A stretch of 64,000 bases of DNA, taken from positions 1 through 64,000 of the forward strand of contig NZ_AFGF01000056.1 of NCBI RefSeq assembly GCF_000219125.1, read 5' to 3'. Shown here piece by piece: positions 23,902-35,746 of the stretch. This stretch comes from Acetonema longum DSM 6540 (lineage in GTDB: Bacteria > Bacillota > Negativicutes > Sporomusales > Acetonemataceae). Position 1 is the first letter of the stretch. Each line of letters opens with the position of its first letter. The notes under the pieces were generated by a model. That model saw only the letters and a program-made list of their open reading frames with translations. It ran no database searches and was not told the DNA's origin. Made by a program: the position numbers and the translations under genes.

Positions 23902-25179
23902 GTGAAAGAAACTATATATCGCCAGATCAGCGCCGGCTATAGCGGACTGATGGAATATACCATTTTAGCTCTGGCATTCTTTCTGCCATTGTCGTTGCGA
24001 ATGTCCACCGTGCTGTTGATTTTTGGCATATTTCTTTGGCTGGCTAAAATGCTGGTGTGCCGTCAATGGGAATTCCAACGCACCCCTTTTGATGAGACCT
24101 TATTTTTCCTGGTGTTTTTAGGTCTGACGTCAGCTCTTGTTTCGGCTGACCGGGGGTTCAGTCTCTACAATTTTGTGCATCTGATGGGGCGTTACCTGGG
24201 TCTCTATTTTCTCATCAGCTATAATGTGACATCGCGGCAGCAGTTGAAACAGGTGGTGTATTCACTGCTGGCCTCATCGGTGGTGGTTGCTCTTTACGGG
24301 TTCTACCAATACATCCTGGGAGTCGATATTTCGGCTTTTGAATGGGTGGACAGCGATCAGTTTCCCGACCTGAAAGTACGAATATTTTCCACCCTGGAGA
24401 ACCCCAACTTGCTGGCCGGTTTTATGGTCATGATGATTGGGCTGGGGTTGGGGCTTGGATTAGGTACACGGGATTGGGACAAGAAGATTTTGCTGTTGAT
24501 TTTTATCCTGCTAATGAGCGGCTGTCTGGTTCTTACATATTCCCGGGGCGCCTGGGTGAGCTTGCTGGCAGTTATTCTGGCCTATGGCCTATTGTGCCGC
24601 CGCTGGGTTTTATGGCTGCTGCTGGCCGTGCCTCTGGCGGCCCTTTGTACGGACGATGTTTATCTTAGACTGGTTTCTATTTTGCACCCCACCGATACTT
24701 CCTCGACTTTGCGGTTTGCTCTGTGGGAAAGTACACTGGCCATGATCCATGACCGACCTTTATTGGGGTTTGGCTGGGGTACATACTGGATGGTCTATCC
24801 CCATTACGACTTTTTTATTCAAGACCCCTCGATTATTATTTTCCATGCACACAATATGTACCTGCATATGGCAGCGGAAACAGGTATTCCGGGCCTGGCG
24901 GCCTTTTTAATTCTCATGGGCTATCATGCCAAGATGGCCTTTACTCTGTATCGGAGCAAGGCTGAGCCATGGGTCAGCGGTTTGTCGGCGGGAATCCTGG
25001 CGGCTTTTTTCGGTATTGCCGTGAATGGCATGACCGACCACGTTTTGTTTAGTGTCCAGATGTCCATGCTGTTCTGGTTTTTTAATGCCATGGTTTTAGT
25101 GTTGTGGCGCACTGCCGAGCCGAAAAAAATATATAAGGACAGGCGAGGCAGCAGGAAAAATTTCTTTTTGAGCGAATAA
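23902..25179 (+). CDS. O-antigen ligase-like (Wzy_C family) membrane protein
   Basis: About 425 residues with 10-11 membrane helices. The Wzy_C signature is visible: YSRGAWVSLL, then a large loop with LRFALWESTLAMIHDRPLLG and HAHNMYLHMAAETGIPGLAAF. Such proteins ligate or polymerise surface polysaccharides at the outer face of the inner membrane, which would suit the Negativicutes outer membrane. GTG at 23902 has AAGGTGA upstream; an in-frame TTG at 23869 is the alternative. The actual substrate is unknown. Confidence 0.8.
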   Translation: MKETIYRQISAGYSGLMEYTILALAFFLPLSLRMSTVLLIFGIFLWLAKMLVCRQWEFQRTPFDETLFFLVFLGLTSALVSADRGFSLYNFVHLMGRYLGLYFLISYNVTSRQQLKQVVYSLLASSVVVALYGFYQYILGVDISAFEWVDSDQFPDLKVRIFSTLENPNLLAGFMVMMIGLGLGLGLGTRDWDKKILLLIFILLMSGCLVLTYSRGAWVSLLAVILAYGLLCRRWVLWLLLAVPLAALCTDDVYLRLVSILHPTDTSSTLRFALWESTLAMIHDRPLLGFGWGTYWMVYPHYDFFIQDPSIIIFHAHNMYLHMAAETGIPGLAAFLILMGYHAKMAFTLYRSKAEPWVSGLSAGILAAFFGIAVNGMTDHVLFSVQMSMLFWFFNAMVLVLWRTAEPKKIYKDRRGSRKNFFLSE

Positions 25180-25295
25180 AACAAATAGTAAATAAAATTA
25201 GATATATTAAGTCTAGTAGGGCTATGTGCCCTCTAATTTTTTATGTATTAATTTGTGAAAATTCGAACAAACAGCCGGAACCTAGGGGGGATTTG

Positions 25296-25667
25296 GTGAA
25301 GCTTTGTGAGGCAAAAATACTGCTCAACGCAGAAGTGGTTTTTGGGGGGCATCTTTTAGATAAGGAAGTAACCACTGCTTGTGGCGCGGATCTCATGAGC
25401 GATGTGTTGGCGTTCACCAAAGAACGGACCCTGCTGCTAACCGGATTGACGAACCTGCAGGTCATCCGGACCGCCGAGATGAGTGACTTGGCGGGAATTG
25501 TATTTGTCAGAGGCAAGCGGCCGAGTCAGGATGTCATTCAACTGGCCGCCAATAACGGTATTCCTTTGCTAGTTACGAGCTGGCCAATGTTTGAAGCTTG
25601 CGGCTTATTATACAGCGGCGGTATCAGGGGCTGTTCCTCTCCTCAAGGAGTTCATCATGAAAGCTGA
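25296..25667 (+). CDS. DRTGG-domain protein (hydrogenase cluster), first copy
   Basis: 123 residues from GTG after GGGGGG. DRTGG-type fold: KILLNAEVVFGGHLLDKEV, DVLAFTKERTLLLTGLTNLQVIRTAEMSDLAGIVFV, and GIPLLVTSWPMFEACGLLY. DRTGG domains occur in phosphotransacetylase and CBS proteins and may bind nucleotides. This gene and a second copy at 27632 flank a sensory hydrogenase-like gene. The stop overlaps the next start by 11 bases, indicating coupling. Confidence 0.8.
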   Translation: MKLCEAKILLNAEVVFGGHLLDKEVTTACGADLMSDVLAFTKERTLLLTGLTNLQVIRTAEMSDLAGIVFVRGKRPSQDVIQLAANNGIPLLVTSWPMFEACGLLYSGGIRGCSSPQGVHHES

Positions 25668-26085
25668 TGCCGGTTTGTCTCTGGAGTTTACTTTGCACGG
25701 CGCAGACTTTGAATTAGCCGGCGCCGCTTCCAGTAAAATAAAGCGAATCCTGCAGCAGGTCGGAGTCAAATCTGACGTGATCCGCCGCATTGCCATCAGT
25801 TCCTATGAGGCGGAAATGAATGTGATTATTCACGCTTATCACGGTGAAATGAGAGTTAGCATCTATCCTAACCGGACTGAAATCACCATTGAAGATGAAG
25901 GGCCGGGTATCCCGGATATTAAACTGGCCATGCAGGAAGGATATTCTACCGCCTCCGACCATATTCGGGAATTGGGTTTTGGCGCCGGTATGGGATTGCC
26001 GAATATAGCCCGCTGCTGTGATGCCTTTGAGATTACATCGGAAGTCGGGAAGGGGACTAGGATCTATATGATGATCCTCCACTAG
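25657..26085 (+). CDS. anti-sigma-factor-like ATP-binding (HATPase_c) protein
   Basis: 142 residues. GHKL ATPase motifs: N-box SYEAEMNVIIHAY, G1 EDEGPGIPD, G2 GFGAGMGLPNIA. It resembles RsbW/SpoIIAB serine kinases but is encoded with DRTGG and hydrogenase-like genes, so it probably acts as a kinase or ATP-dependent switch in a redox signalling module. The start with AAGGAG lies inside the previous gene. Confidence 0.85.
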   Translation: MKADAGLSLEFTLHGADFELAGAASSKIKRILQQVGVKSDVIRRIAISSYEAEMNVIIHAYHGEMRVSIYPNRTEITIEDEGPGIPDIKLAMQEGYSTASDHIRELGFGAGMGLPNIARCCDAFEITSEVGKGTRIYMMILH

Positions 26086-26224
26086 GAGACCGTTGAAAAA
26101 GGCCCATCTGCGTCGTTACTCCTGCGGGCGCGCGCTTGCCGTACCCTGCGAACGTACTGTCTGCGCGCGCGTCCTCGTCGCGCCTAGCATCTGAACTTTT
26201 TTGAACGGTCTCATATTCGAGGCC
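26086..26224 (+). repeat. modular palindromic repeat, copy D
   Basis: Begins at the HATPase stop. Left arm GAGACCGTTGAAAAAGGCCC. The inner module contains GCTTGCCGTACCCTGCGAAC and GTACTGTCTGCGCGCGCGTC. Right arm AGCATCTGAAC then TTTTTTGAACGGTCTC, and the tail ATTCGAGGCC. Nearly identical to copy G. Confidence 0.9.
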
Positions 26225-26228
26225 CCAG

Positions 26229-27602
26229 TTGTATGACAAAACTTCGTGGACAGAGGGGGTGGAGGCTATTAGTGAATACTTTCATTCTGTGCGGCTGATA
26301 GCGGAGCGCTGCAAGGGATGTGTGAATTGTATCAAACATTGTCCCACGGAAGCGATTCGCATTCGCGGCGGCAAAGCCCGGATCACGGAATCCCGCTGTA
26401 TAGACTGCGGCGAATGTATCAGGCGCTGCCCGAATCATGCCAAGACAGCTGTTACTGACTGTTTGGAACATATTAAACAATACCCATTTAATGTGGCCTT
26501 GCCGGCGCCTTCCCTGTACGGACAGTTTAATTCCGATGTGACTATTGAGAAAATTCTTGAATCTTTATTGCAAGTGGGATTTGATACAGTTTTTGAAGTC
26601 GCCTTGGGGGCGGATATTGTTTCCCGTGCCATTGCCGAATACTTAAAACGGCCGGATATTAAAAGGCCGGCCATATCTTCCGCCTGCCCGGCGGTAGTGA
26701 GGCTGGTGCAGGTGCAGTTTCCGGAATTGATTGATCATTTAATACCCATTGATGCGCCGGTAGAAGTTTCCACCCGCATTGCACGGGATGAAGCTGTTAA
26801 ACGAACCGGACTGGCGCCGGAGAACATCGGTGTTTGGTTTATTACCCCCTGTCCGGCCAAGATGACCACAGTAAAACAGCCGTTGGGATCGGAAACATCC
26901 AATATTTCCGGGGCAATCGGCATTTCTGAGATTTATGGGGACTTGCTCAGAGCGTTTCCTGACTGCAACGGTGGCCAAAAATTGCGGCGAGCTTCTCCGG
27001 CAGGTATCGGCTGGGCTCTCTCGGGCGGTGAGGTATCAGCCGTACAGGCTGCCAAAGCGTTGGTGGTTAATGAAATTGAAAGTGTCAACGGGGTGCTGGA
27101 ACAGGTTGCCTTAGGCAAACTTAAAGAAGTGGAGTATATTGAGTGCTTATCCTGTGCCGGAGGCTGTATTGGCGGACCTCTGACCGTGGAAAGCCGATTT
27201 GTAGCCCAATACCGTATGCAGCAGCGGGTTGATGGGAAGATGAACCCGGATGCTATTGGAAATTTGTCGGTGAATGTGGATTACGCTGCAGTTTTAGGAG
27301 GGGATGAACGACGGGTGATTGAACCGCGTCCGGTCATGCGGCTGGATGAAGATATTTCCAGGGCTCTATATAAAGTGGAGGTCATGGAAGACACACTAAA
27401 AAGACTGCCCGGATTAGACTGCGGCTCCTGCGGTTCCCCTAACTGCAAAGCATTAGCTGAGGACATTGCTCAGGGAACAGCCTGTGAGACCGATTGCCTT
27501 TTTAAACTGCGGGAGAAGGTAAGGGATTTAGCCCGGGAAATGGTTGAAGTGGCGGACAGACTGCCGCCGCCCCTGGTCAAACAATCAGGCGATGAGTCTT
27601 GA
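26229..27602 (+). CDS. sensory-type [FeFe] hydrogenase-like iron-sulfur protein (HydS-like)
   Basis: About 457 residues. Two [4Fe-4S] motifs (CKGCVNCIKHCP, CIDCGECIRRCP) are followed by an H-cluster-type domain with SSACPAVV (Cys153), TPCPAK (Cys208) and CLSCAGGCIGG. A C-terminal four-cysteine Fe-S domain (LDCGSCGSPNCKALAED) follows, then a short helix. The single Cys in the first motif and the absence of a small-subunit tail are features of group C/D sensory hydrogenases rather than catalytic enzymes. No PAS domain is present, so group D-like. Start uncertain: TTG 26229, or GTG 26259 which follows GAGGGG directly. Confidence 0.82.
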   Translation: MYDKTSWTEGVEAISEYFHSVRLIAERCKGCVNCIKHCPTEAIRIRGGKARITESRCIDCGECIRRCPNHAKTAVTDCLEHIKQYPFNVALPAPSLYGQFNSDVTIEKILESLLQVGFDTVFEVALGADIVSRAIAEYLKRPDIKRPAISSACPAVVRLVQVQFPELIDHLIPIDAPVEVSTRIARDEAVKRTGLAPENIGVWFITPCPAKMTTVKQPLGSETSNISGAIGISEIYGDLLRAFPDCNGGQKLRRASPAGIGWALSGGEVSAVQAAKALVVNEIESVNGVLEQVALGKLKEVEYIECLSCAGGCIGGPLTVESRFVAQYRMQQRVDGKMNPDAIGNLSVNVDYAAVLGGDERRVIEPRPVMRLDEDISRALYKVEVMEDTLKRLPGLDCGSCGSPNCKALAEDIAQGTACETDCLFKLREKVRDLAREMVEVADRLPPPLVKQSGDES

Positions 27603-27631
27603 TTATCGGTACAGGACAGGAGGTGAATCCC

Positions 27632-27973
27632 GTGACGGTGAGAGATCTTGTCAGTGCTTTATCCCTGGAGGTTGGCGCCGGGGAATCTATGCTGGACGAG
27701 CCTGTGACTGGCGGCTATGTTTCGGATTTGCTGAGCAATGTGATGGGGCAGGCACAGCCCGGTCAGATTTGGGTCACAGTGCAGGCCCACCAGAATATTA
27801 TTGCTGTAGCATCGTTGGCTGGGCTGGCGGCAGTGCTTCTGGCCGGAGAAGTGCGGCCGGAAAATGAGGTTCTTCAGAAAGCGGAAAGTGAAAAAGTCCC
27901 TGTACTACTATCGCCGCTGCCGGCTTATGAATTAGTGGGGCGCTTATTTCAACTTGGGGTCAGAGGTATGTAA
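27632..27973 (+). CDS. DRTGG-domain protein (hydrogenase cluster), second copy
   Basis: 113 residues from GTG after AGGAGGTGA. Same fold as the gene at 25296: LEVGAGESMLDEPVTGGYVS, GQIWVTVQAHQNIIAVASLA and VPVLLSPLPAYELVGRLFQL. Its stop overlaps the start of the PHP gene by one base, so both are in one transcript with the HydS-like gene. Confidence 0.8.
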   Translation: MTVRDLVSALSLEVGAGESMLDEPVTGGYVSDLLSNVMGQAQPGQIWVTVQAHQNIIAVASLAGLAAVLLAGEVRPENEVLQKAESEKVPVLLSPLPAYELVGRLFQLGVRGM

Positions 27974-28713
27974 TGGATGAGTTTGTTGCGGATTTGCACG
28001 TCCATTCCCTGCTTTCTCCCTGCGCTGCGGTGGAAATGACGCCTCGCAATATTATTTTGCATGCTGTTCGGCATGGAGTGAATATTATCGCCCTGGCCGA
28101 TCATAATGCCGGGGATAACGTAATAGCGGCGATAGAAGCGGCCAAGGGACTGGATGTGACCGTGCTGCCCGCCATGGAAGTGGAAACCAGGGAAGAGATC
28201 CACCTGGTCACTTTATTTGACAGCATGCATCGGTTTAAAGCCTGGGAGGAGATCGTCTCGCGCCATAGGCCGAAGCGCCTCAATGATGAAAAAAAATTTG
28301 GCGCCCAGTTCATTGTCGATGCACAGGATGAATTTGTGGCCGTAAAACAGGAACTTCTGCTGGCGTCCCTTTCTCTGGGAATCGCCGAAATCAGCCGGAA
28401 GGTCGCTGAACTGGGCGGTATTTCGATAGCCAGCCATATCGACCGCCCATCTTATAGCATTATTTCTCAATTGGGATTTATCCCGGCCGATGCGTTTTTG
28501 GCAGCAGTGGAAGTTTCACGGCTGACCAAACCTGGCGATGCCCGCCGTTTGTTCCCGGGGATCGGGAATCTGCCGGTGATTACCGCTTCCGATGCCCATA
28601 CTATACATGATTTTGTTACCGGACCGAAAATGGTCTTTCATATTCGGCAGCCGAATTTAGCCGAGATAGTTCAGGCTTTGCAGGGACAAAATGCACGAAA
28701 GGTGGTGGTCTAA
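27973..28713 (+). CDS. PHP-domain phosphoesterase (hydrogenase cluster)
   Basis: 246 residues. PHP metal motifs: ADLHVHSLLSPCA (HxH), LADHNAG, ISIASHIDRPSYS and ITASDAHTIHDF. PHP proteins are metal-dependent phosphoesterases; in clostridial hydrogenase operons this gene accompanies HydS and DRTGG proteins. Substrate unknown; a signalling phosphatase or nucleotide hydrolase is possible. Confidence 0.86.
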   Translation: MDEFVADLHVHSLLSPCAAVEMTPRNIILHAVRHGVNIIALADHNAGDNVIAAIEAAKGLDVTVLPAMEVETREEIHLVTLFDSMHRFKAWEEIVSRHRPKRLNDEKKFGAQFIVDAQDEFVAVKQELLLASLSLGIAEISRKVAELGGISIASHIDRPSYSIISQLGFIPADAFLAAVEVSRLTKPGDARRLFPGIGNLPVITASDAHTIHDFVTGPKMVFHIRQPNLAEIVQALQGQNARKVVV

Positions 28714-28730
28714 CCACTATACCGGCAGGG

Positions 28731-28870
28731 GTCGTTGAAAAAGGCCCATCTGCGTTGTCAGGTCTGCGAGAGCGCGCTTGCCGTACCCTCGCGAACGTAC
28801 TGTCTGCGCGCGCTTTCTCGACCTTCCTAGTATCTGGACCTTTTTGAACGGCCCCGGATTTGAGCCGCAG
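28731..28870 (+). repeat. modular palindromic repeat, copy E
   Basis: 17 bases after the PHP stop. Arms GTCGTTGAAAAAGGCCC and GGACCTTTTTGAACGGCCCC. The inner part contains the CTTGCCGTACCCTCGCGAAC hairpin module nested within GCGAGAG / CTTTCTCGACC flanks, then tail GATTTGAGCCGCAG. Confidence 0.9.
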
Positions 28871-28901
28871 ACGATCTTTGCAATCGAAGGAGGAATAGAT
28901 C

Positions 28902-29399
28902 ATGAGCAATGAAAACGAAGTAAAAAAATGCTGCTGTGGCGGCAACGCCAGTCAGATGGCGCAATTGGATGCGATTCTGGCCAAATATCAGGGTGTGCAA
29001 GGCGCCTTGATTCCGGTTCTGCAGGAGGCCCAAAATGCCTATGGGTACTTGTCGAAAGAAGTTGTAGAATGCATAGCGAAAAAAATGGGTATCCCGGTAA
29101 GTCAGGTTTATGGAGTCATTACCTTCTATTCGCAGTTTCATCTAAATCCCCGGGGTAAAAATATCATTCGGGTCTGTCAGGGAACAGCCTGCCATGTAAG
29201 GGGCGGTAAGGCGATCTTACAAGCCCTGGAGGATCAGCTTCATATTTCTGCCGGTCAAACCACGCCGGACCTGAAATTCACCTTGGAGACGGTGGCCTGT
29301 ATCGGCGCCTGCGGTCTGGCGCCAGTCATGATGATCAATGATGATACTCACGGGCGGCTCACCACCGATATTCTGCCGGAAATTCTGGCCAAATACTAG
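28902..29399 (+). CDS. NuoE-like [2Fe-2S] subunit of NAD(P)-linked hydrogenase (HydC/HndA type)
   Basis: 165 residues. Thioredoxin-like [2Fe-2S] domain with ligands in CQGTACHVRG and CIGACGLAP, preceded by the NuoE helical region (GALIPVLQEAQNAYGYLS). It is the small electron-transfer subunit of trimeric or tetrameric [FeFe] hydrogenases. The N-terminal CCCGGN is cysteine-rich and unusual. RBS GGAGG. Confidence 0.9.
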   Translation: MSNENEVKKCCCGGNASQMAQLDAILAKYQGVQGALIPVLQEAQNAYGYLSKEVVECIAKKMGIPVSQVYGVITFYSQFHLNPRGKNIIRVCQGTACHVRGGKAILQALEDQLHISAGQTTPDLKFTLETVACIGACGLAPVMMINDDTHGRLTTDILPEILAKY

Positions 29400-29411
29400 A
29401 CGCGGCATTTT

Positions 29412-29963
29412 ATGCATGAACTCTCGCTGCATATTTTAGATCTGGTTCAAAACTCCCTGGAAGCGGGAGCGAACGATATCTTTCTGGAAATTATCGAGGA
29501 CCGGCCAAAAGATGAGTTAATGCTCCGCGTGACTGATAACGGCAAAGGAATGCATGAAACTCTGCTGGGAACGGTTCGCGACCCGTTTGTAAGTACCCGA
29601 AAAACCCGCAAAGTTGGGCTGGGCTTGCCGCTCATTGACATGACGGCCCGGCAGGCCGGCGGCAGTCTGGATATCGAGTCGAAACCCGGTAAGGGAACGG
29701 TGGTTAAAGCGACCTATTGTTTAAATCATATAGACTGTCCGCCTCTGGGCAAAATTGGGGCTGCGCTGAAAGCTTTGCTGGTCGGCAATCCGGGAGTAAA
29801 TATCCGCTATTATCATCAGGTTGACAGTCAGACCTTTTCTCTTTCCACTCAGGAAATTCGCGGAATTTTGCATGGTATTCCGCTGACTCACCCGGATGTG
29901 CTGCTATGGCTTGACGGGCACATTCGGGAGAATTTGGCGAGACTTTACGGGGGTGTTAAGTGA
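29412..29963 (+). CDS. ATP-binding (HATPase_c) protein of the hydrogenase cluster
   Basis: 183 residues. GHKL motifs: LHILDLVQNSLEAGA (N-box), VTDNGKGM (G1) and KVGLGLPLI (G2). The C-terminal 70 residues are not recognisable. It has no dimerisation/His domain of a normal sensor kinase. It lies between the NuoE- and HndB-like genes; the stop overlaps the next start (TGATG). Its role in the hydrogenase module is unknown. Confidence 0.83.
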   Translation: MHELSLHILDLVQNSLEAGANDIFLEIIEDRPKDELMLRVTDNGKGMHETLLGTVRDPFVSTRKTRKVGLGLPLIDMTARQAGGSLDIESKPGKGTVVKATYCLNHIDCPPLGKIGAALKALLVGNPGVNIRYYHQVDSQTFSLSTQEIRGILHGIPLTHPDVLLWLDGHIRENLARLYGGVK

Positions 29964-30334
29964 TGAAAACACTGGAAGATTTAAAACGTCTGCGGGAAAA
30001 ACTACAGGACGAAACCCGCCTGCGTCACAGCAGCGGAACACAGATTATCATCGGTATGGGGACCTGCGGTATCGCCGCCGGAGCCAGGGAAGTAATGACT
30101 GCCATTTTGGATGAAATAGCCAAGCGTAATTTACAGGACGTGGAGGTCAGGCAAACTGGCTGTATTGGCATGTGTGAAAAAGAAGTGCTGGTGGATGTGG
30201 TGCGTCCCGGGGAGCCCAGGATTACTTATGGCAAAGTTAAACCCGCCGTGGTGTCTAAAATTATTGCAGAACATGTGGTAAACGGACGGATTGTGGAGGA
30301 GCTTGTAGTCGGCAAAATCACCAGAGACCGTTGA
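29963..30334 (+). CDS. thioredoxin-like [2Fe-2S] ferredoxin (HndB type)
   Basis: 123 residues. Ferredoxin of the HndB/NuoE-C-terminal type, with Cys ligands in GMGTCGIAAGA and QTGCIGMCEKE. It carries electrons to or from the flavin subunit encoded downstream. The last residues R-D-R and the TGA stop are encoded by the left arm of a palindromic repeat, so the native C-terminus has probably been altered. Confidence 0.88.
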   Translation: MKTLEDLKRLREKLQDETRLRHSSGTQIIIGMGTCGIAAGAREVMTAILDEIAKRNLQDVEVRQTGCIGMCEKEVLVDVVRPGEPRITYGKVKPAVVSKIIAEHVVNGRIVEELVVGKITRDR

Positions 30335-30586
30335 AAAAGGCCCGTATGCGTCACTTCAGCCTCTTGCGGACGGACACGTACTCTGCGAACGTACAGTCTC
30401 ACGCCGTCCTCGTCGCGCTGTATCAGAATTTGTGACTTTCCGGGAAATAGGTAGCGGCGGATGGTTTCTCATTAAGCCGCAAAGTCACCTGAATTCTTCA
30501 GTACGGCAACGCAGGCGTTGCTCTTACCCAGGCATCTGGACTTTTTTGAATGGTCTCAGATTCGTGGCCGCAGGTGAGTTTGCAAC
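30324..30586 (+). repeat. modular palindromic repeat, copy F (long)
   Basis: Starts inside the upstream coding end (GAGACCGTTGAAAAAGGCCC). It contains the GTACTCTGCGAACGTAC / GTCCTCGTCGCGC module, then a second module (GGTAGCGGCGG, TTTCTCATTAAGCC, AAAGTCACCTGAATTCTTC, AGTACGG) shared with copy J. It ends with GACTTTTTTGAATGGTCTC and the tail CAGATTCGTGGCCGCAGG. It fills the 309-base gap before the flavin-subunit gene. Confidence 0.88.
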
Positions 30587-30643
30587 AGTATGACAGGCGC
30601 CCATGATACTTTGAATGATGCTAAAGATTAGGAGGGGGAAAAT

Positions 30644-32434
30644 ATGCAACACATTAGAGCGCATGTGCTGATTTGTGCCGGAACCGGCTGTGTCTCGTCC
30701 GGCTCTAAAAAAGTAGAAACCGCCTTGCGGGACGAACTGGTGAAAAAAGGACTGGATCAGGAAATAAAAGTGGTTGAAACCGGCTGCCACGGCTTCTGTG
30801 AGATGGGGCCGATTCTGATCGTGTATCCGGAAGGTGTTTTTTATTGCCGGGTGCAGCCGGAAGACGTGCCTGAACTGGTAGACTCCCATTTATACAAGGG
30901 CCGTATTGTCGAAAGGCTCTTATACCGTGAACCGGTATCCCACGAAAAGATTCCGAATTATAATGATATTGCTTTCTATAAAAAACAACACAGGATGGTA
31001 CTGGCCAATTGCGGCCATATCAATCCGGAGGAAATCGGAGAATATATCGCTGCCGGCGGCTATGAAGCCCTGGCTAAGGCTCTGACAGTTATGAAGCCCG
31101 TCGAGGTTGTCGCCGAAATGAAAAAATCCGGCTTGCGCGGCCGGGGAGGCGGCGGTTTCCCTACCGGCACGAAATGGGAGTTCACCCGTAATGCTGCCGG
31201 TGACAAAAAATACGTGGTCTGTAACGCAGACGAAGGAGATCCGGGCGCTTTCATGGATCGCAGCGTTTTAGAGGGAGACCCTCACCGGGTGATTGAGGGC
31301 ATGGCTATCTGCGGTTATACCATAGGTGCGGATGAAGGCTATATTTATGTGCGGGCTGAATATCCATTGGCTATCAAACGCCTGCGCATCGCTATGAAAC
31401 AGGCGGAAGAAATGGGCCTGATCGGCGATAATATTTTTAATTCCGGTTTTAATTTTCATCTGAAAATCAAAGAAGGAGCCGGCGCTTTTGTCTGCGGTGA
31501 AGAAACGGCGCTGCTGCATTCCATTGAAGGAAAACGCGGCATGCCCCGACCCCGTCCTCCATTTCCGGCCATTGCCGGCTTGTGGGGTAAACCGACCAAT
31601 ATTAACAACGTAGAGACTTTTGCCAATGTACCTCAGATCATCACCAAAGGCGCCGATTGGTATGCTTCCATTGGCACCGAGCGCAGCAAAGGCACCAAAG
31701 TCTTCGCCTTAACCGGCAAAATTAACAATACCGGCCTGGCGGAAGTGCCCATGGGGATTACTATGCGGGAAATCATCTATGAAATCGGCGGCGGCATTCC
31801 CAACGGCAAAAAATATAAAGCCGTGCAAATCGGCGGCCCTTCCGGAGGCTGTCTGCCAGAACAGCTTTTGGACCTGCCGGTGGACTATGACTCCCTGATT
31901 CAGGCCGGAGCGATGATGGGTTCCGGCGGTTTGGTGGTCATGGATGAGACCACCTGCATGGTGGATATCGCCAAGTTTTTCCTGAACTTCACTCAGTCTG
32001 AATCTTGCGGCAAGTGTACCCCCTGCCGCGAAGGGACGAAACGGATGCTGGAAATTCTCAACCGCATTACCGAAGGCAAGGGCCAGGAAAACGATATTGA
32101 TCTCCTGGAGGAAATGGCCAAAAACATCAAGGCCACTGCCTTGTGTGGCTTGGGGCAGACCGCTCCCAATCCGGTGCTGAGCACATTGCGCTATTTCCGG
32201 GCGGAATATGAAGCCCATATTAAGGAAAAACGCTGTCCGGCAGGAGCTTGCAAAAGCCTTTCCGGGTATCAGATCACCGAATTATGCAAAGGCTGTGGCC
32301 TGTGCAAGAAGGTCTGCCCGGTAGACGCGATTAGCGGCGAAGTCAAAGCAATACACAGTATGGATCAGGCCAAATGCATCAAATGCGGTGCTTGTTTTGC
32401 CAAATGCCCCTTTAAAGCGATCGTCAAGGGATAA
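30644..32434 (+). CDS. NuoF-like flavin subunit of NAD(P)-linked [FeFe] hydrogenase (HydB/HndC type)
   Basis: 596 residues. The N-terminal [2Fe-2S] thioredoxin-like domain has CAGTGCVSSG and ETGCHGFCEMGP. The FMN/NAD(H) core has GLRGRGGGGFPTGTKW and CNADEGDPGAFMDR; the [4Fe-4S] site is CGKCTPCREGT. A C-terminal 2[4Fe-4S] ferredoxin domain (CKGCGLCKKVCP, CIKCGACFAKCP) completes it. This is the nucleotide-oxidising/reducing subunit of HydABC-type, potentially electron-bifurcating, hydrogenases. NADH versus NADPH use is not clear. Confidence 0.93.
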   Translation: MQHIRAHVLICAGTGCVSSGSKKVETALRDELVKKGLDQEIKVVETGCHGFCEMGPILIVYPEGVFYCRVQPEDVPELVDSHLYKGRIVERLLYREPVSHEKIPNYNDIAFYKKQHRMVLANCGHINPEEIGEYIAAGGYEALAKALTVMKPVEVVAEMKKSGLRGRGGGGFPTGTKWEFTRNAAGDKKYVVCNADEGDPGAFMDRSVLEGDPHRVIEGMAICGYTIGADEGYIYVRAEYPLAIKRLRIAMKQAEEMGLIGDNIFNSGFNFHLKIKEGAGAFVCGEETALLHSIEGKRGMPRPRPPFPAIAGLWGKPTNINNVETFANVPQIITKGADWYASIGTERSKGTKVFALTGKINNTGLAEVPMGITMREIIYEIGGGIPNGKKYKAVQIGGPSGGCLPEQLLDLPVDYDSLIQAGAMMGSGGLVVMDETTCMVDIAKFFLNFTQSESCGKCTPCREGTKRMLEILNRITEGKGQENDIDLLEEMAKNIKATALCGLGQTAPNPVLSTLRYFRAEYEAHIKEKRCPAGACKSLSGYQITELCKGCGLCKKVCPVDAISGEVKAIHSMDQAKCIKCGACFAKCPFKAIVKG

Positions 32435-32460
32435 ATAGGCGAATGAAGGAGTGTGAGACT

Positions 32461-34191
32461 ATGGACCAGGATAAAGTAACAATAACGATTGACGGCCAAA
32501 AGCTGCAAGTGCCAAAAACTTCGACCGTGCTGGAAGCGGCCCGGTCCGCAGGCGTTAAGATACCCAGCCTTTGTTATCATCCCGAGTTGAGACCGGAAGG
32601 GGCCTGCCGGGTGTGTATGGTGGAAGTGGAAGGGGCTCGCAGCTTGGTTGCCTCCTGCGTATATCCGGTCAACGAAGGCATGGTGGTCCGGACTAATACT
32701 CCGGCAGTGCGGGAAGGCCGCAAAATGGTGGTGGAACTGCTGTTGGCCAACCATCCTCAAGACTGCCTGTCCTGCCAGCGCAACCTAAACTGCGAGCTTC
32801 AAAGCATCGCCGGTGATTTGGGGCTGCGTCAGGTCCGGTTTGACGGAGAAAAGAAACACTATCCTCTGGATGATTCCAATCCTTCGCTAGTACGGGACCA
32901 GTCCAAATGTATTCTGTGCGGACGATGCATCCGGGCCTGCAGTGAACGCCAGGGAGTTCATGTCTACAGTTTCGTAAACCGGGGATTTGATACTACGGTT
33001 TCACCGGCCTTCAACCAGGGTTTGCATCAGGTAGCCTGTACTTTCTGCGGCCAGTGTGCGGCAGTATGTCCCACTGGTGCTATTGTGGAACGGGATAACA
33101 CAGCGGAAGTGTGGAAGGTTCTCAGCGATCCCCAGAAGCATGTAGTGGTCCAGACTGCCCCGGCGGTACGGGTGGCTCTGGGGGAAGCCCTGGGCCTGGA
33201 TGCCGGACAAATCGTGACTGGCAAAATGGTGGCGGCATTGCGCCGCTTAGGCTTTGATAAGGTGTTCGACACCGACTTCAGCGCCGACCTGACGATTATG
33301 GAAGAAGGTTCGGAATTTATCGAGCGCTTGACCAAAGGAGGCAAACTGCCGATGATTACCTCCTGCAGCCCCGGCTGGGTCAACTTTATCGAGCTGATGT
33401 ATCCGGATCTTCTGGAGCACCTGTCTACGGCTAAGTCACCGCAACAGATGTTTGGCGCTCTGGTTAAGACTTACTATGCCGAAAAGAGCGGCATCAGCCC
33501 CGCCGGCATTGTGTCGGTGTCCATTATGCCCTGCACGGCGAAAAAGGCCGAAGCAGCCCGTACTGAAATGAAGTCCAACGGGCATCAAGATGTGGATTAT
33601 GTCCTTACTACCCGGGAACTGGGGCGCATGATCCGGGAGGCGGGTCTCGACTTTAATGCTCTGCCGTCGGAGGAATATGATGCGCCGCTGGGCATTTCCA
33701 CAGGCGCCGGCGTTATTTTCGGCGCAACCGGCGGCGTGATGGAAGCGGCTCTCAGGACTGTGGCCGAAACAGTAACCGGTAAAGCGTTGCCCGACATCGA
33801 ATTTCATAATGTGCGCGGCTTGACCGGAATCCGGGAAGCTGTAGTGCCGGTGGGCGATTCAAAAGTCAAGGTGGCTGTGGCTCATACCCTGGGGAATGCC
33901 CGTATGCTTATGGAAAAGATTCGTGCCGGTGTGGCTGATTATCACTTTATTGAAATTATGGCTTGTCCCGGCGGCTGTATCGGCGGAGGCGGACAGCCGG
34001 CGCCAATTTCACAGGAAGTGCGCCAGCAGCGGATTAACGCCATTTACCAGTGCGATCAGGCTATGACACTGCGTAAATCCCATGAGAATCCGGCTGTAAG
34101 AGAACTTTATGATACCTGGCTGGGCAAACCGCTGGGCGAGAAATCGCATAAACTGCTGCATACTCACTATCATCCCCAGGAACGCTGCTAG
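32461..34191 (+). CDS. hydA: [FeFe] hydrogenase catalytic subunit (HydA/HndD type)
   Basis: 576 residues. The N-terminal [2Fe-2S] domain uses Cys38, 49, 52 and 66. A His-Cys [4Fe-4S] motif (HPQDCLSCQRNLNC) and two [4Fe-4S] motifs (CILCGRCIRAC, CTFCGQCAAVCP) follow. H-cluster motifs are TSCSPGW (Cys302), MPCTAK (Cys358) and MACPGGCIGGGGQP (Cys502, Cys506). The C-terminal small-subunit-like tail is present. It makes or consumes H2, coupled to ferredoxin and NAD(P)H with the NuoF- and NuoE-like subunits. ATG at 32461 follows AAGGAG. Confidence 0.95.
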   Translation: MDQDKVTITIDGQKLQVPKTSTVLEAARSAGVKIPSLCYHPELRPEGACRVCMVEVEGARSLVASCVYPVNEGMVVRTNTPAVREGRKMVVELLLANHPQDCLSCQRNLNCELQSIAGDLGLRQVRFDGEKKHYPLDDSNPSLVRDQSKCILCGRCIRACSERQGVHVYSFVNRGFDTTVSPAFNQGLHQVACTFCGQCAAVCPTGAIVERDNTAEVWKVLSDPQKHVVVQTAPAVRVALGEALGLDAGQIVTGKMVAALRRLGFDKVFDTDFSADLTIMEEGSEFIERLTKGGKLPMITSCSPGWVNFIELMYPDLLEHLSTAKSPQQMFGALVKTYYAEKSGISPAGIVSVSIMPCTAKKAEAARTEMKSNGHQDVDYVLTTRELGRMIREAGLDFNALPSEEYDAPLGISTGAGVIFGATGGVMEAALRTVAETVTGKALPDIEFHNVRGLTGIREAVVPVGDSKVKVAVAHTLGNARMLMEKIRAGVADYHFIEIMACPGGCIGGGGQPAPISQEVRQQRINAIYQCDQAMTLRKSHENPAVRELYDTWLGKPLGEKSHKLLHTHYHPQERC

Positions 34192-34201
34192 ACCGCTATC
34201 A

Positions 34202-34255
34202 CAGAATTGGCGCCTCCGGTTTTCCGGAGGCGCCAATTCTGTTTCCAATATTTTT
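34202..34255 (+). terminator. strong intrinsic terminator after hydA
   Basis: Perfect 18-bp stem (CAGAATTGGCGCCTCCGG and its complement, 34202-34219 / 34224-34241), loop TTTT, then TTTCCAATATTTTTTT. It ends the hydrogenase region. Confidence 0.92.
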
Positions 34256-34381
34256 TTAAATAAAGTACAAGGACAAAAGAGGAAAAAGTATTGGCCCAGT
34301 GGAAGCATATTTGATATGGATAAACAGAACTAGACATACTGATATTGTAGAGATTGACTAATCAACGGGAGGTTCTGACTG

Positions 34382-35020
34382 TTGAAAGACCATATTGTTA
34401 TTTCCCGGGCTACGATCGACCGTTTGCCGGTATATTTTCGCTGTTTGCGTCACATACAGGAAGAAGGAGCCGAAATTATTTCTTCTGAGGATTTGGGCCG
34501 CCGGGTCGGCGTTACACCGGAACAGATACGCAAGGACCTGGCCTCATTCGGAGAATTTGGCAAAAAAGGCGTTGGCTACTATGTCCGGGATTTGATCCGC
34601 AATATCGGCGAAATTCTGGGTTTGCATCGCAATTGGAATATTGCTATTGCCGGGGTGGGACATTTAGGCTGGGCTTTGGCCAACTATCGCAATTTTATTT
34701 CGCTAGGATTTAATTTAAAAGCGCTGTTTGACGTAGATCCGATGAAGATCGGCCAGATTGTCAATGGTGTGGAGGTTTTTTCCTGTGAAAAAATACCCCA
34801 GATTGTAGACGAATATGATATCCATATCGCCATTATTACCGTTCCGGCTTCCAATGCCCAGTCTATTGCGAATGTATTGGTGGAATGCGGCGTCAAAGGA
34901 ATTTGGAATTTTGCTCCGATACGGCTGAAGGTGCCGGACGATGTCCGTCTTGTCAGTGAAGATCTCTCCGTCGGCTTGAGCAGTATTTCCTACTATCTTA
35001 GCCGCGAATATAAACTTTAA
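34382..35020 (+). CDS. rex: redox-sensing transcriptional repressor Rex
   Basis: 212 residues from TTG with GGGAGG upstream. The N-terminal winged helix (SRATIDRLPVYFRCLRHIQ, RVGVTPEQIRKDLASFGEFG) is typical of Rex. The Rossmann domain has AGVGHLGWAL for NAD(H). Rex senses the NADH/NAD+ ratio and represses fermentation and hydrogenase genes in many Firmicutes, so its place directly after hydA suggests a regulatory link. I could not find a convincing Rex operator by eye. Confidence 0.96.
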   Translation: MKDHIVISRATIDRLPVYFRCLRHIQEEGAEIISSEDLGRRVGVTPEQIRKDLASFGEFGKKGVGYYVRDLIRNIGEILGLHRNWNIAIAGVGHLGWALANYRNFISLGFNLKALFDVDPMKIGQIVNGVEVFSCEKIPQIVDEYDIHIAIITVPASNAQSIANVLVECGVKGIWNFAPIRLKVPDDVRLVSEDLSVGLSSISYYLSREYKL

Positions 35021-35047
35021 AAAAATTTTTCAACAAAAAAAATTCCT

Positions 35048-35083
35048 AAAAGAAATCCTGGCGAATCGCAAGGATTTCTTTTG
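35048..35083 (+). terminator. probable terminator after rex
   Basis: Stem AAAAGAAATCCT / AGGATTTCTTTT around an 11-base loop, with Ts forming the end of the stem. Confidence 0.65.
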
Positions 35084-35176
35084 TTTATTGTAGAAGATAC
35101 ACATACTAGGTATAACGCTGAAGCTGAATTAGACTGGATTCGACACAAGATATCGCGTTATATTTTAGGGGGTACC

Positions 35177-35746
35177 ATGGCTATCATTTTAGCTTCGTCT
35201 TCGCCGCGCCGGCGGCAGTTATTGGAACAAGTCGGACTCTCCTTTACCGTTGTCACCAGTGAAGTAGAGGAAAAGAACTGTCAAGGTTCCTCACCGGCGC
35301 AGACAGCCACTCTCTTGGCTGAGAAAAAAGCATTAGCAGTGGCGGCGAAAGCAGAGGCGGATGATATTGTCATTGGGGCCGATACCATTGTGGTTGTGGA
35401 CAATCAGGTGTTTGGCAAGCCGGATCATCCCAGCCAAGCCAGAGAAATGCTGCATATCTTGTCAGGCCGTTGTCATCAGGTGATGACCGGCATAGCTGTG
35501 GTAAAAGGGAAAAGCGTCTGGTCAGACGTGCAAGTGACACAGGTTATATTCCGAAACTTGAAACCGGATGAGATAGAACGTTATATTGCCAGTGGAGAAC
35601 CTGCCGATAAAGCAGGCGGATATGCCATTCAGGGACTGGGAGTCCTTTTGGTGGAGAAAATCGAAGGATGCTATACCAACGTGGTCGGGTTGCCGTTAGT
35701 AACGCTTTCCCGATTACTGATAAAGGCTGGTGTTCGAATGTTATGA
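35177..35746 (+). CDS. maf: Maf-family nucleoside triphosphate pyrophosphatase
   Basis: 189 residues. Maf motifs: ILASSSPRRRQLLEQ, EKALAVAA, GADTIVVVD and the GYAIQGLG region. It hydrolyses non-canonical or dTTP/UTP nucleotides to monophosphates. ATG at 35177 (GGGGG upstream) is used; an upstream in-frame start runs from the rex terminator. It overlaps radC by four bases. The maf-radC-mreBCD order is a conserved Firmicutes block. Confidence 0.95.
   Translation: MAIILASSSPRRRQLLEQVGLSFTVVTSEVEEKNCQGSSPAQTATLLAEKKALAVAAKAEADDIVIGADTIVVVDNQVFGKPDHPSQAREMLHILSGRCHQVMTGIAVVKGKSVWSDVQVTQVIFRNLKPDEIERYIASGEPADKAGGYAIQGLGVLLVEKIEGCYTNVVGLPLVTLSRLLIKAGVRML

Follow-up and report, generated by a model that had tools for sequence, protein, structure and literature searches.

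A conserved six-gene module with an exchangeable sensor: HydS or a CBS pair beside a SpoIIAB-like ATPase and DRTGG proteins

Introduction

Sensory [FeFe]-hydrogenases, including those of group D, are usually encoded upstream of bifurcating hydrogenases, often with a histidine/serine kinase gene between the two; the portions of PMC3561251 on these enzymes list many such clusters, and the clustering of HydS, kinase and hydrogenase genes is already in print. How the group D signal is passed on is a question posed in the part of PMC8163306 dealing with this group. Described here is a locus from Acetonema longum DSM 6540 that bears on this question. The window, as the whole stretch analysed is called, comprises 64,000 nucleotides (positions 1 to 64,000 of contig NZ_AFGF01000056.1), and an initial annotation had proposed that positions 25,296 to 30,334 hold a hydrogen/redox signalling module, made up of a HydS-like protein, two DRTGG proteins, two HATPases and a PHP phosphoesterase, upstream of a catalytic hydrogenase. 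Six of these genes, D1-W-S-D2-P-K, form a real module that is found together far above chance, and in which HydS (S) can be replaced by a CBS pair. In the reading considered best, at a probability of about 0.5, the ATPase W would act as a SpoIIAB-type kinase on the DRTGG proteins D1 and D2, gated by HydS or CBS and opposed by P and K.

The sensory [FeFe]-hydrogenases of HydDB groups C1 to C3 are presented, in the passages of PMC5037454 that classify them, as putative sensors of H2 with links to kinases, chemotaxis or phosphatases, and in this respect resemble the system described here. Unlike these groups, with their links to histidine kinases, chemotaxis and Ser/Thr phosphatases, the module consists of separate small proteins and lacks a PAS domain. 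A second likeness is to the partner-switching pairs SpoIIAB-SpoIIAA and RsbW-RsbV: W shares the fold, ATP boxes and catalytic Glu of SpoIIAB, and its small partner, like that of SpoIIAB, has an invariant Asp/Ser where a strand meets a helix. It differs from SpoIIAB/RsbW switching in having DRTGG in place of STAS and PHP in place of PP2C, in the lack of a sigma factor in the set, and in its attached hydrogenase or CBS sensor. The literature searched made no mention of the two DRTGG proteins with their PHP neighbour, of the swap of HydS for CBS or of the fusions set out below; DRTGG and hydrogenase were mentioned together there only in an unrelated case, a DRTGG protein of lactate use.

A conserved six-gene module

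Pfam and NCBIfam profiles confirmed the proposed composition upstream of the catalytic hydrogenase, with the signalling and hydrogenase genes of 25296-35020 all on the + strand. The six module genes are as follows.

25296..25667, + strand: D1, stand-alone DRTGG protein with a GTG start (PF07085, 32.2 bits)
25657..26085, + strand: W, SpoIIAB/RsbW-like GHKL ATPase (PF13581, HATPase_c_2, 45.7 bits)
26229..27602, + strand: S, HydS-like group D [FeFe]-hydrogenase (PF02906, 107 bits; PF04060, 38 bits)
27632..27973 (longest frame from 27599), + strand: D2, second stand-alone DRTGG protein (PF07085, 33.5 bits)
27973..28713, + strand: P, PHP phosphoesterase (PF02811, 34.7 bits)
29412..29963, + strand: K, second stand-alone HATPase with a C-terminal part of its own (PF02518, HATPase_c, 56.7 bits)

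D1 and D2 probably start at the GTG codons at 25296 and 27632, and HydS perhaps at the GTG at 26259 instead of 26229. The pairs D1/W and D2/P overlap or abut, as does K with the [2Fe-2S] protein gene that follows it.

Conservation of the gene neighbourhood, the first check proposed for this locus, was borne out both by co-occurrence across genomes and by gene order. HydS was present in 68 of 199 genomes from the phylum that were chosen regardless of the module and all searched with W, D1, P and K profiles. S and W occurred together in 67 genomes (S only 1, W only 6, neither 125), S and P in 65 (S only 3, P only 4, neither 127), S and D1 in 61 (S only 7, D1 only 7, neither 124), and K and W in 69 (K only 5, W only 4, neither 121), with Fisher p-values for co-occurrence below 1e-30, uncorrected for the relatedness of the genomes. 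The cuts for these counts, an E of at most 1e-33 for D1-type hits and more than 140 bits for P, were set after viewing the lists, and the W family is sharply bounded, all 74 hits falling at E<=1.8e-51 with none from there to 1e-18. The genes are also close together: in 66 of the 74 cases W lies at most 300 bp from S, and in 62 of the 69 P lies at most 1.5 kb from it.

Another sample, of 80 named loci selected for their similarity in HydS, contains W (77), D2 (73), D1 (70), P (68) and K (55) in constant order; individual loci are numbered here with the prefix L. The full set is present in 45, with only K missing in 17, only P in five, only D1 in four, and less of the module in nine, some of these nine being cut by contig ends; several contigs end early. 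These loci come from Bacillota and from metagenome-bin records titled delta proteobacterium, Syntrophorhabdales, Armatimonadetes, NPL-UPA2 and Sumerlaeota (titles unchecked), and W was found in 45 of 198 genomes of the phylum of L077, a record titled Syntrophorhabdales. One family, f77 (L128-L130, L137, L138), has the set split, with D1-D2-P-K apart from W-S and all six still kept; in two of these loci, L130 and L137, a Rex-like gene precedes the D1-D2-P-K part, which in L130 lies by Maf-RadC-MreB. L196-L199 have the arrangement W-S-D2-P-E-K-F-B-A, with D1 absent.

Gene fusions give a second line of evidence. D1 and W are fused in nine loci (L014, L035, L038, L071, L094, L095, L103, L116, L143), which fall at three separate points of the W tree, S and D2 are fused in five loci at two points (L012, L017, L146, L153, L156), and P and K form one protein of 425-434 aa in L189-L191, which belong to one family. 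A Pfam check upheld the D1-W fusion in L143, S-D2 in L012 and L153, and P-K in L189. In L189-L191 the set D1-W-S-D2-PK lies on the strand opposite to NuoE-[2Fe-2S]-NuoF, and L201 and L204-L206 carry D1-W-S-D2-P with none of these three catalytic genes in the stretch examined, K being present in three of the four. K is therefore a member of the module and not a hydrogenase subunit. The catalytic part of the A. longum operon comprises NuoE, the [2Fe-2S] protein, NuoF and HydA, and is separate from the six-gene module.

An exchangeable sensor

W carries an N-terminal CBS pair, as detected by Pfam, in 12 loci (L119-L122, L139-L142, L144, L145, L147, L193), of which 11 have no HydS in the stretch examined and one, L193, has both. 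The order in L122, Rex-D1-CBSW-D2-P-K-E-F-B-HydA, is nearly that of the window operon minus HydS. In a FastTree phylogeny of 146 W domains (158 minus identical or short rows), the CBS branches are placed among HydS-linked branches, with three changes of the CBS label and eight of the HydS label, of which well-supported branches force only one to two; nine further W rows have neither HydS nor CBS in the stretch examined. W of seven loci (L144, L146, L147, L151, L153, L156, L158) was found by a stop-to-stop frame search, the gene caller having missed it in 7 of 20 loci. HydS is thus replaceable by a CBS pair fused to W, and the sensor is exchangeable.

The neighbouring enzymes vary as well. Rnf-type genes directly follow D1-CBSW in L121 and W-S-D2 in L135, the latter assigned from the order of the genes and from weak profile hits. 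At L145:7117-11984 and L150:5665-8977 the module is enclosed by complex I operons, recognised by NuoD (PF00346). The replacement of HydS by a CBS pair in 11 loci, and the association with Rnf and complex I, mean that the module is not bound to H2. Of the hydrogen/redox signalling module first proposed, the signalling set, the HydS-type sensor and a strong link to the bifurcating-type hydrogenase are supported, and the restriction to hydrogen is too narrow.

Association with HydABC, Rnf and complex I also suits a different function, in which the ATPases and DRTGG proteins would build or check Fe-S and flavin complexes, with HydS or CBS reporting redox or energy state. The A. mobile operon has HydD, HydP and HisK genes that contribute no product to the purified enzyme, and these are assumed in the relevant text of PMC8880783 to serve maturation and/or regulation. 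However, many module loci are far from any HydABC, Rnf or complex I operon, and sensor domains suit regulation better. To our knowledge, the majority of HydABC enzymes from other bacteria function without the module, which also counts against an assembly role, and this function is regarded as unlikely.

The HydS protein

HydS is a predicted H2/redox sensor. Across 142 copies the cluster cysteines are kept wherever sequence is present: the eight N-terminal residues in 138/138 non-gap rows, the four C-terminal residues in 142/142, and the four of the H-cluster in 142/142 at three positions and 141/141 non-gap rows at the fourth. These include the two N-terminal and one C-terminal sets of [4Fe-4S] cysteines that group D requires. 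The position of C299 in the hydrogenase CpI is occupied in 135 of the 142 by Ala, Ser or Thr (A 107, S 22, T 6, H 2, Y 1, gap 1, as the six commonest letters), and Cys is not among the letters listed. At CpI M353 the residues are T 85, S 53, A 2 and V 2, and at M497 they are Q 65, L 61 and others. The window HydS has A, T and L at these three positions, and no PAS domain was found in it by Pfam. As predicted from these features, it fits the description of group D (M2e) in the defining passages of PMC8163306, sharing with TamHydS the full complement of cluster cysteines, the lack of C299, the C-terminal [4Fe-4S] set, the lack of PAS and the location upstream of a bifurcating-type hydrogenase. 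Its closest named isolate is Anaerospora hongkongensis, at 64%.

The gene reported as an ‘AraC regulator’ beside TamHydS is probably a misannotated D2, as D2 directly follows S, and W and D2 flank it, in seven of the eight Thermoanaerobacter genomes having S (L209-L216; T. mathranii was not identified among those compared), and D2 of T. wiegelii contains DRTGG and no AraC domain. The HydS of L210 is 100% identical to that of T. wiegelii, and D2 and P were not found in the 1.5 kb that follow it.

Two loci place other hydrogenase-domain proteins beside HydS. At L129:3937-5847, on the - strand, an [FeFe]-hydrogenase domain with FeS is fused to an MCP signalling domain, adjoining W-S and CheW; this protein is likely an H2 chemoreceptor of the HydDB C2 kind. 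A second fusion, joining a hydrogenase domain to HisKA, lies next to W-S-K at L148:3-1730, also on the - strand.

The ATPases and DRTGG proteins

The suggestion that one HATPase is RsbW-like holds for W, both by its HATPase_c_2 match and by its relatives in the PDB, where sequence matches are SpoIIAB structures only, with the catalytic Glu and Asn aligned. W retains the SpoIIAB catalytic Glu and the N, G1 and G2 ATP boxes, and Glu55, Asn59, Asp84, Gly86, Gly88 and Gly111/113/115 are invariant (78/78, and 32/32 in later loci). In K the ATP boxes are also intact, with Asp in place of Glu. Foldseek with the fused D1-W protein of L094 ranks SpoIIAB first, with the DRTGG structure AF1212 lower down.

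SpoIIAB as the closest relative of W also suggests an anti-sigma role, in which W would bind a sigma factor and HydS would control transcription of the hydrogenase genes. W nevertheless falls below the NCBIfam equivalog cut-offs for SpoIIAB (62/135 bits) and RsbW (24-30 versus 145-155 bits), no recurrent sigma factor or STAS gene lies nearby, though a sigma factor could be encoded elsewhere, and the Rex-like sites described below offer an alternative transcriptional route, making this role decidedly improbable. The HATPase_c match would similarly allow K or W to be the histidine kinase of an ordinary two-component system; HisKA was found in neither protein by Pfam, and the set has no response regulator, so that little credence is given to such a system. 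Of the proposed resemblance to partner switching, the RsbW-like kinase fold stands, and the remaining parts, namely STAS, a PP2C/SpoIIE phosphatase and a recurrent sigma factor, are not seen among the window genes of the set or the recurrent neighbours of the module.

D1 and D2 exceed the PF07085 cut-off of 25.2 bits, and have lost the canonical DRTGG motif, sharing instead an invariant Asp-x-x-Ser and Thr. Asp32, Ser35 and Thr49 are present in 71/71 D1 and 74/74 D2 sequences, and in later loci in 30/30 D1, with Asp and Ser in 30/30 and Thr in 29/30 D2 (one further D2 is cut off). The GNR/GDR motif is absent from the 16 D1 and 16 D2 aligned, whereas 18 canonical DRTGG domains of the same phylum have it, together with a GAM motif, Ala at position 32 in 15 of 18, and no common Ser at 35. 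In a structure model of the L094 D1-W protein, the Asp and Ser lie at a strand-helix junction and the Thr ends the next strand, an arrangement like that of the phosphorylated Ser in SpoIIAA. An alignment that combined fused rows with rows of D1 or W alone misaligned D1 to W and was dropped, and the model was built from another alignment.

The PHP protein

P carries the PHP metal-binding set, with H10, H12 and H45 in 69/69 sequences, E70 and H78 in 67/69, H156 in 66/69, and D208 and H210 in 65/69, no other letter being listed at these positions, and has an invariant Ser-Pro-Cys motif. Its structure model (pLDDT 96.6) best matches EndoQ (Z 25.6, 218 residues, 2.2 A), followed by TM0559 (Z 17.9, 187 residues, 2.9 A), RNase AM (Z 16.4, 183 residues, 3.0 A) and an AMP-bound phosphoesterase (Z 15.1, 204 residues, 3.6 A), with protein tyrosine phosphatases at Z 7.3. 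P resembles EndoQ, RNase AM and TM0559 in fold and metal-binding residues, and differs from EndoQ in lacking the rest of that protein and in its Ser-Pro-Cys motif. The proposed phosphatase of the circuit is thus nearest in modelled fold to nucleases and nucleotide phosphoesterases, and not to protein phosphatases.

This fold would be at home in a nucleotide-signal circuit, in which D1 and D2, with CBS where present, would bind an adenine nucleotide (AMP, ATP or a dinucleoside polyphosphate) made or presented by W and K and destroyed by P, with HydS setting the balance. DRTGG and CBS also occur together in nucleotide-regulated family II pyrophosphatases, as described in the sections of PMC10742508 on their CBS-DRTGG insert, and CBS pairs are fused to W. 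Unlike that insert, the module has separate proteins, a divergent DRTGG motif and CBS on a GHKL ATPase. The loss of the GNR/GDR motif from D1 and D2 argues against nucleotide binding, no nucleotide-forming enzyme family was found by Pfam among the window genes of the set, and five of the 80 named loci retain D1, W, S, D2 and K without P. On account of the nuclease-like fold of P, the circuit keeps a minor but appreciable chance.

A proposed mechanism

In the preferred reading, W would be a Ser kinase of the SpoIIAB type with Ser35 of D1 and/or D2 as its substrate, the DRTGG proteins standing in for the STAS antagonists of partner switching. W would be gated by HydS, responding to H2 or redox state, or by the CBS pair, responding to adenine nucleotides; D1 would pair with W and D2 with HydS, and P with K would form an opposing or resetting arm. 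The composition and order of the module, its co-inheritance, the fusions, the CBS exchange and the kept catalytic residues are observed, the kinase activity, substrate, direction and output being inferred.

Several observations weigh against it. Ser35 is retained in D2 of L131 and L132, where W was not found, so its conservation need not mean that it is a substrate of W. In the L094 model, domain placement is uncertain (pTM 0.69). D1 is missing from 7 of 68 genomes with S and P from three of the 68, five named loci have the module with K and without P, and the fold of P is nuclease-like and unlike that of protein phosphatases. Inter-protein covariation, calculated as mutual information with average product correction for 10 pairs (94-141 sequences each, Neff ~80-115), rose above scrambled pairings for none of them. 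No response protein has been identified.

Transcription and neighbouring genes

The remaining features of the locus, comprising the catalytic genes, a Rex-like gene and operator, and a repeat, are as follows.

25253..25270, + strand: Rex-like operator before D1, with 2 mismatches to TTGTKAANNNNTTMACAA
28902..29399, + strand: NuoE/HydC-like subunit (PF01257, 189.9 bits)
29960..30334, + strand: thioredoxin-like [2Fe-2S] protein (NCBIfam 2Fe-2S ferredoxin, 39 bits, below cut-off)
30644..32434, + strand: NuoF/HydB-like subunit (PF01512, 161 bits)
32443..34191, + strand: HydA, group A6 NADH-dependent [FeFe]-hydrogenase (NF040763, 929.8 bits, cut-off 765)
34382..35020, + strand: open reading frame, presumably a Rex-like redox repressor gene
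26086-26222 (W-S gap), 28733-28864 (P-NuoE gap) and 30324-30576 ([2Fe-2S]-NuoF gap): dispersed palindromic repeat of ~137 bp

The operator before D1 is the sole site in the window with 2 mismatches to its consensus, and Rex-like sites matching at least 12 of 14 positions are enriched upstream of modules (13/77 versus 19/709); at up to 3 mismatches, such sites are not enriched over the whole window (5 versus 8.5 by chance). This site and the upstream enrichment suggest that transcription of the module is probably set by Rex, and hence by NADH, with the signalling module as an added layer. Among transcription factors, sigma factors, STAS and PP2C genes beside the module, only Rex recurs, relatives of the window gene being present at 15 of 81 loci; recurrent neighbours were families in at least 5 of the 81, judged mostly by sequence start and position and partly by Pfam. 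Genes downstream of P in loci without a hydrogenase are unrelated to one another. As the module has no DNA-binding or sigma protein and Rex handles transcription, the output would probably be control of the neighbouring enzyme itself, not of transcription. Between 24900 and 34500, promoter-like sites are at chance level (11 versus 9.7), and terminator-like sites (21 versus 9.9) lie mostly within genes, from which nothing was concluded.

The palindromic repeat in the operon gaps has 42 matches in its own genome (40 of 227 candidates scored) and folds strongly (z -2.3 and -3.4). An Rfam scan of 24900-35200, repeat copies included, matched nothing, and the repeat is MITE- or REP-like. In the genome itself, 4.32 Mb in 295 contigs, eight genes match Fe_hyd_lg_C over its full length, of which two are adjacent on contig C279, and C78 has two short fragment matches.

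Concluding remarks

Tentatively, the module may be a system of its own kind, in which a kinase acts on DRTGG and not on STAS proteins, sensors are plugged in, a PHP-HATPase arm resets the switch, and enzymes using NAD(H) or ferredoxin are set by it in several phyla, serving as the output path of group D sensory hydrogenases. The module names likely partners for the group D signal path, with the physical pairs D1-W, S-D2 and P-K and one candidate phosphorylation site, and if the proposed mechanism is true, the kinase-DRTGG system would be the missing output path of these sensors. Its exchangeable sensor gives it the look of a general switch for anaerobe energy enzymes that handle NAD(H), ferredoxin and H2, and it suggests that HydABC, Rnf and complex I share a layer of control in anaerobes relevant to biohydrogen and methane formation.

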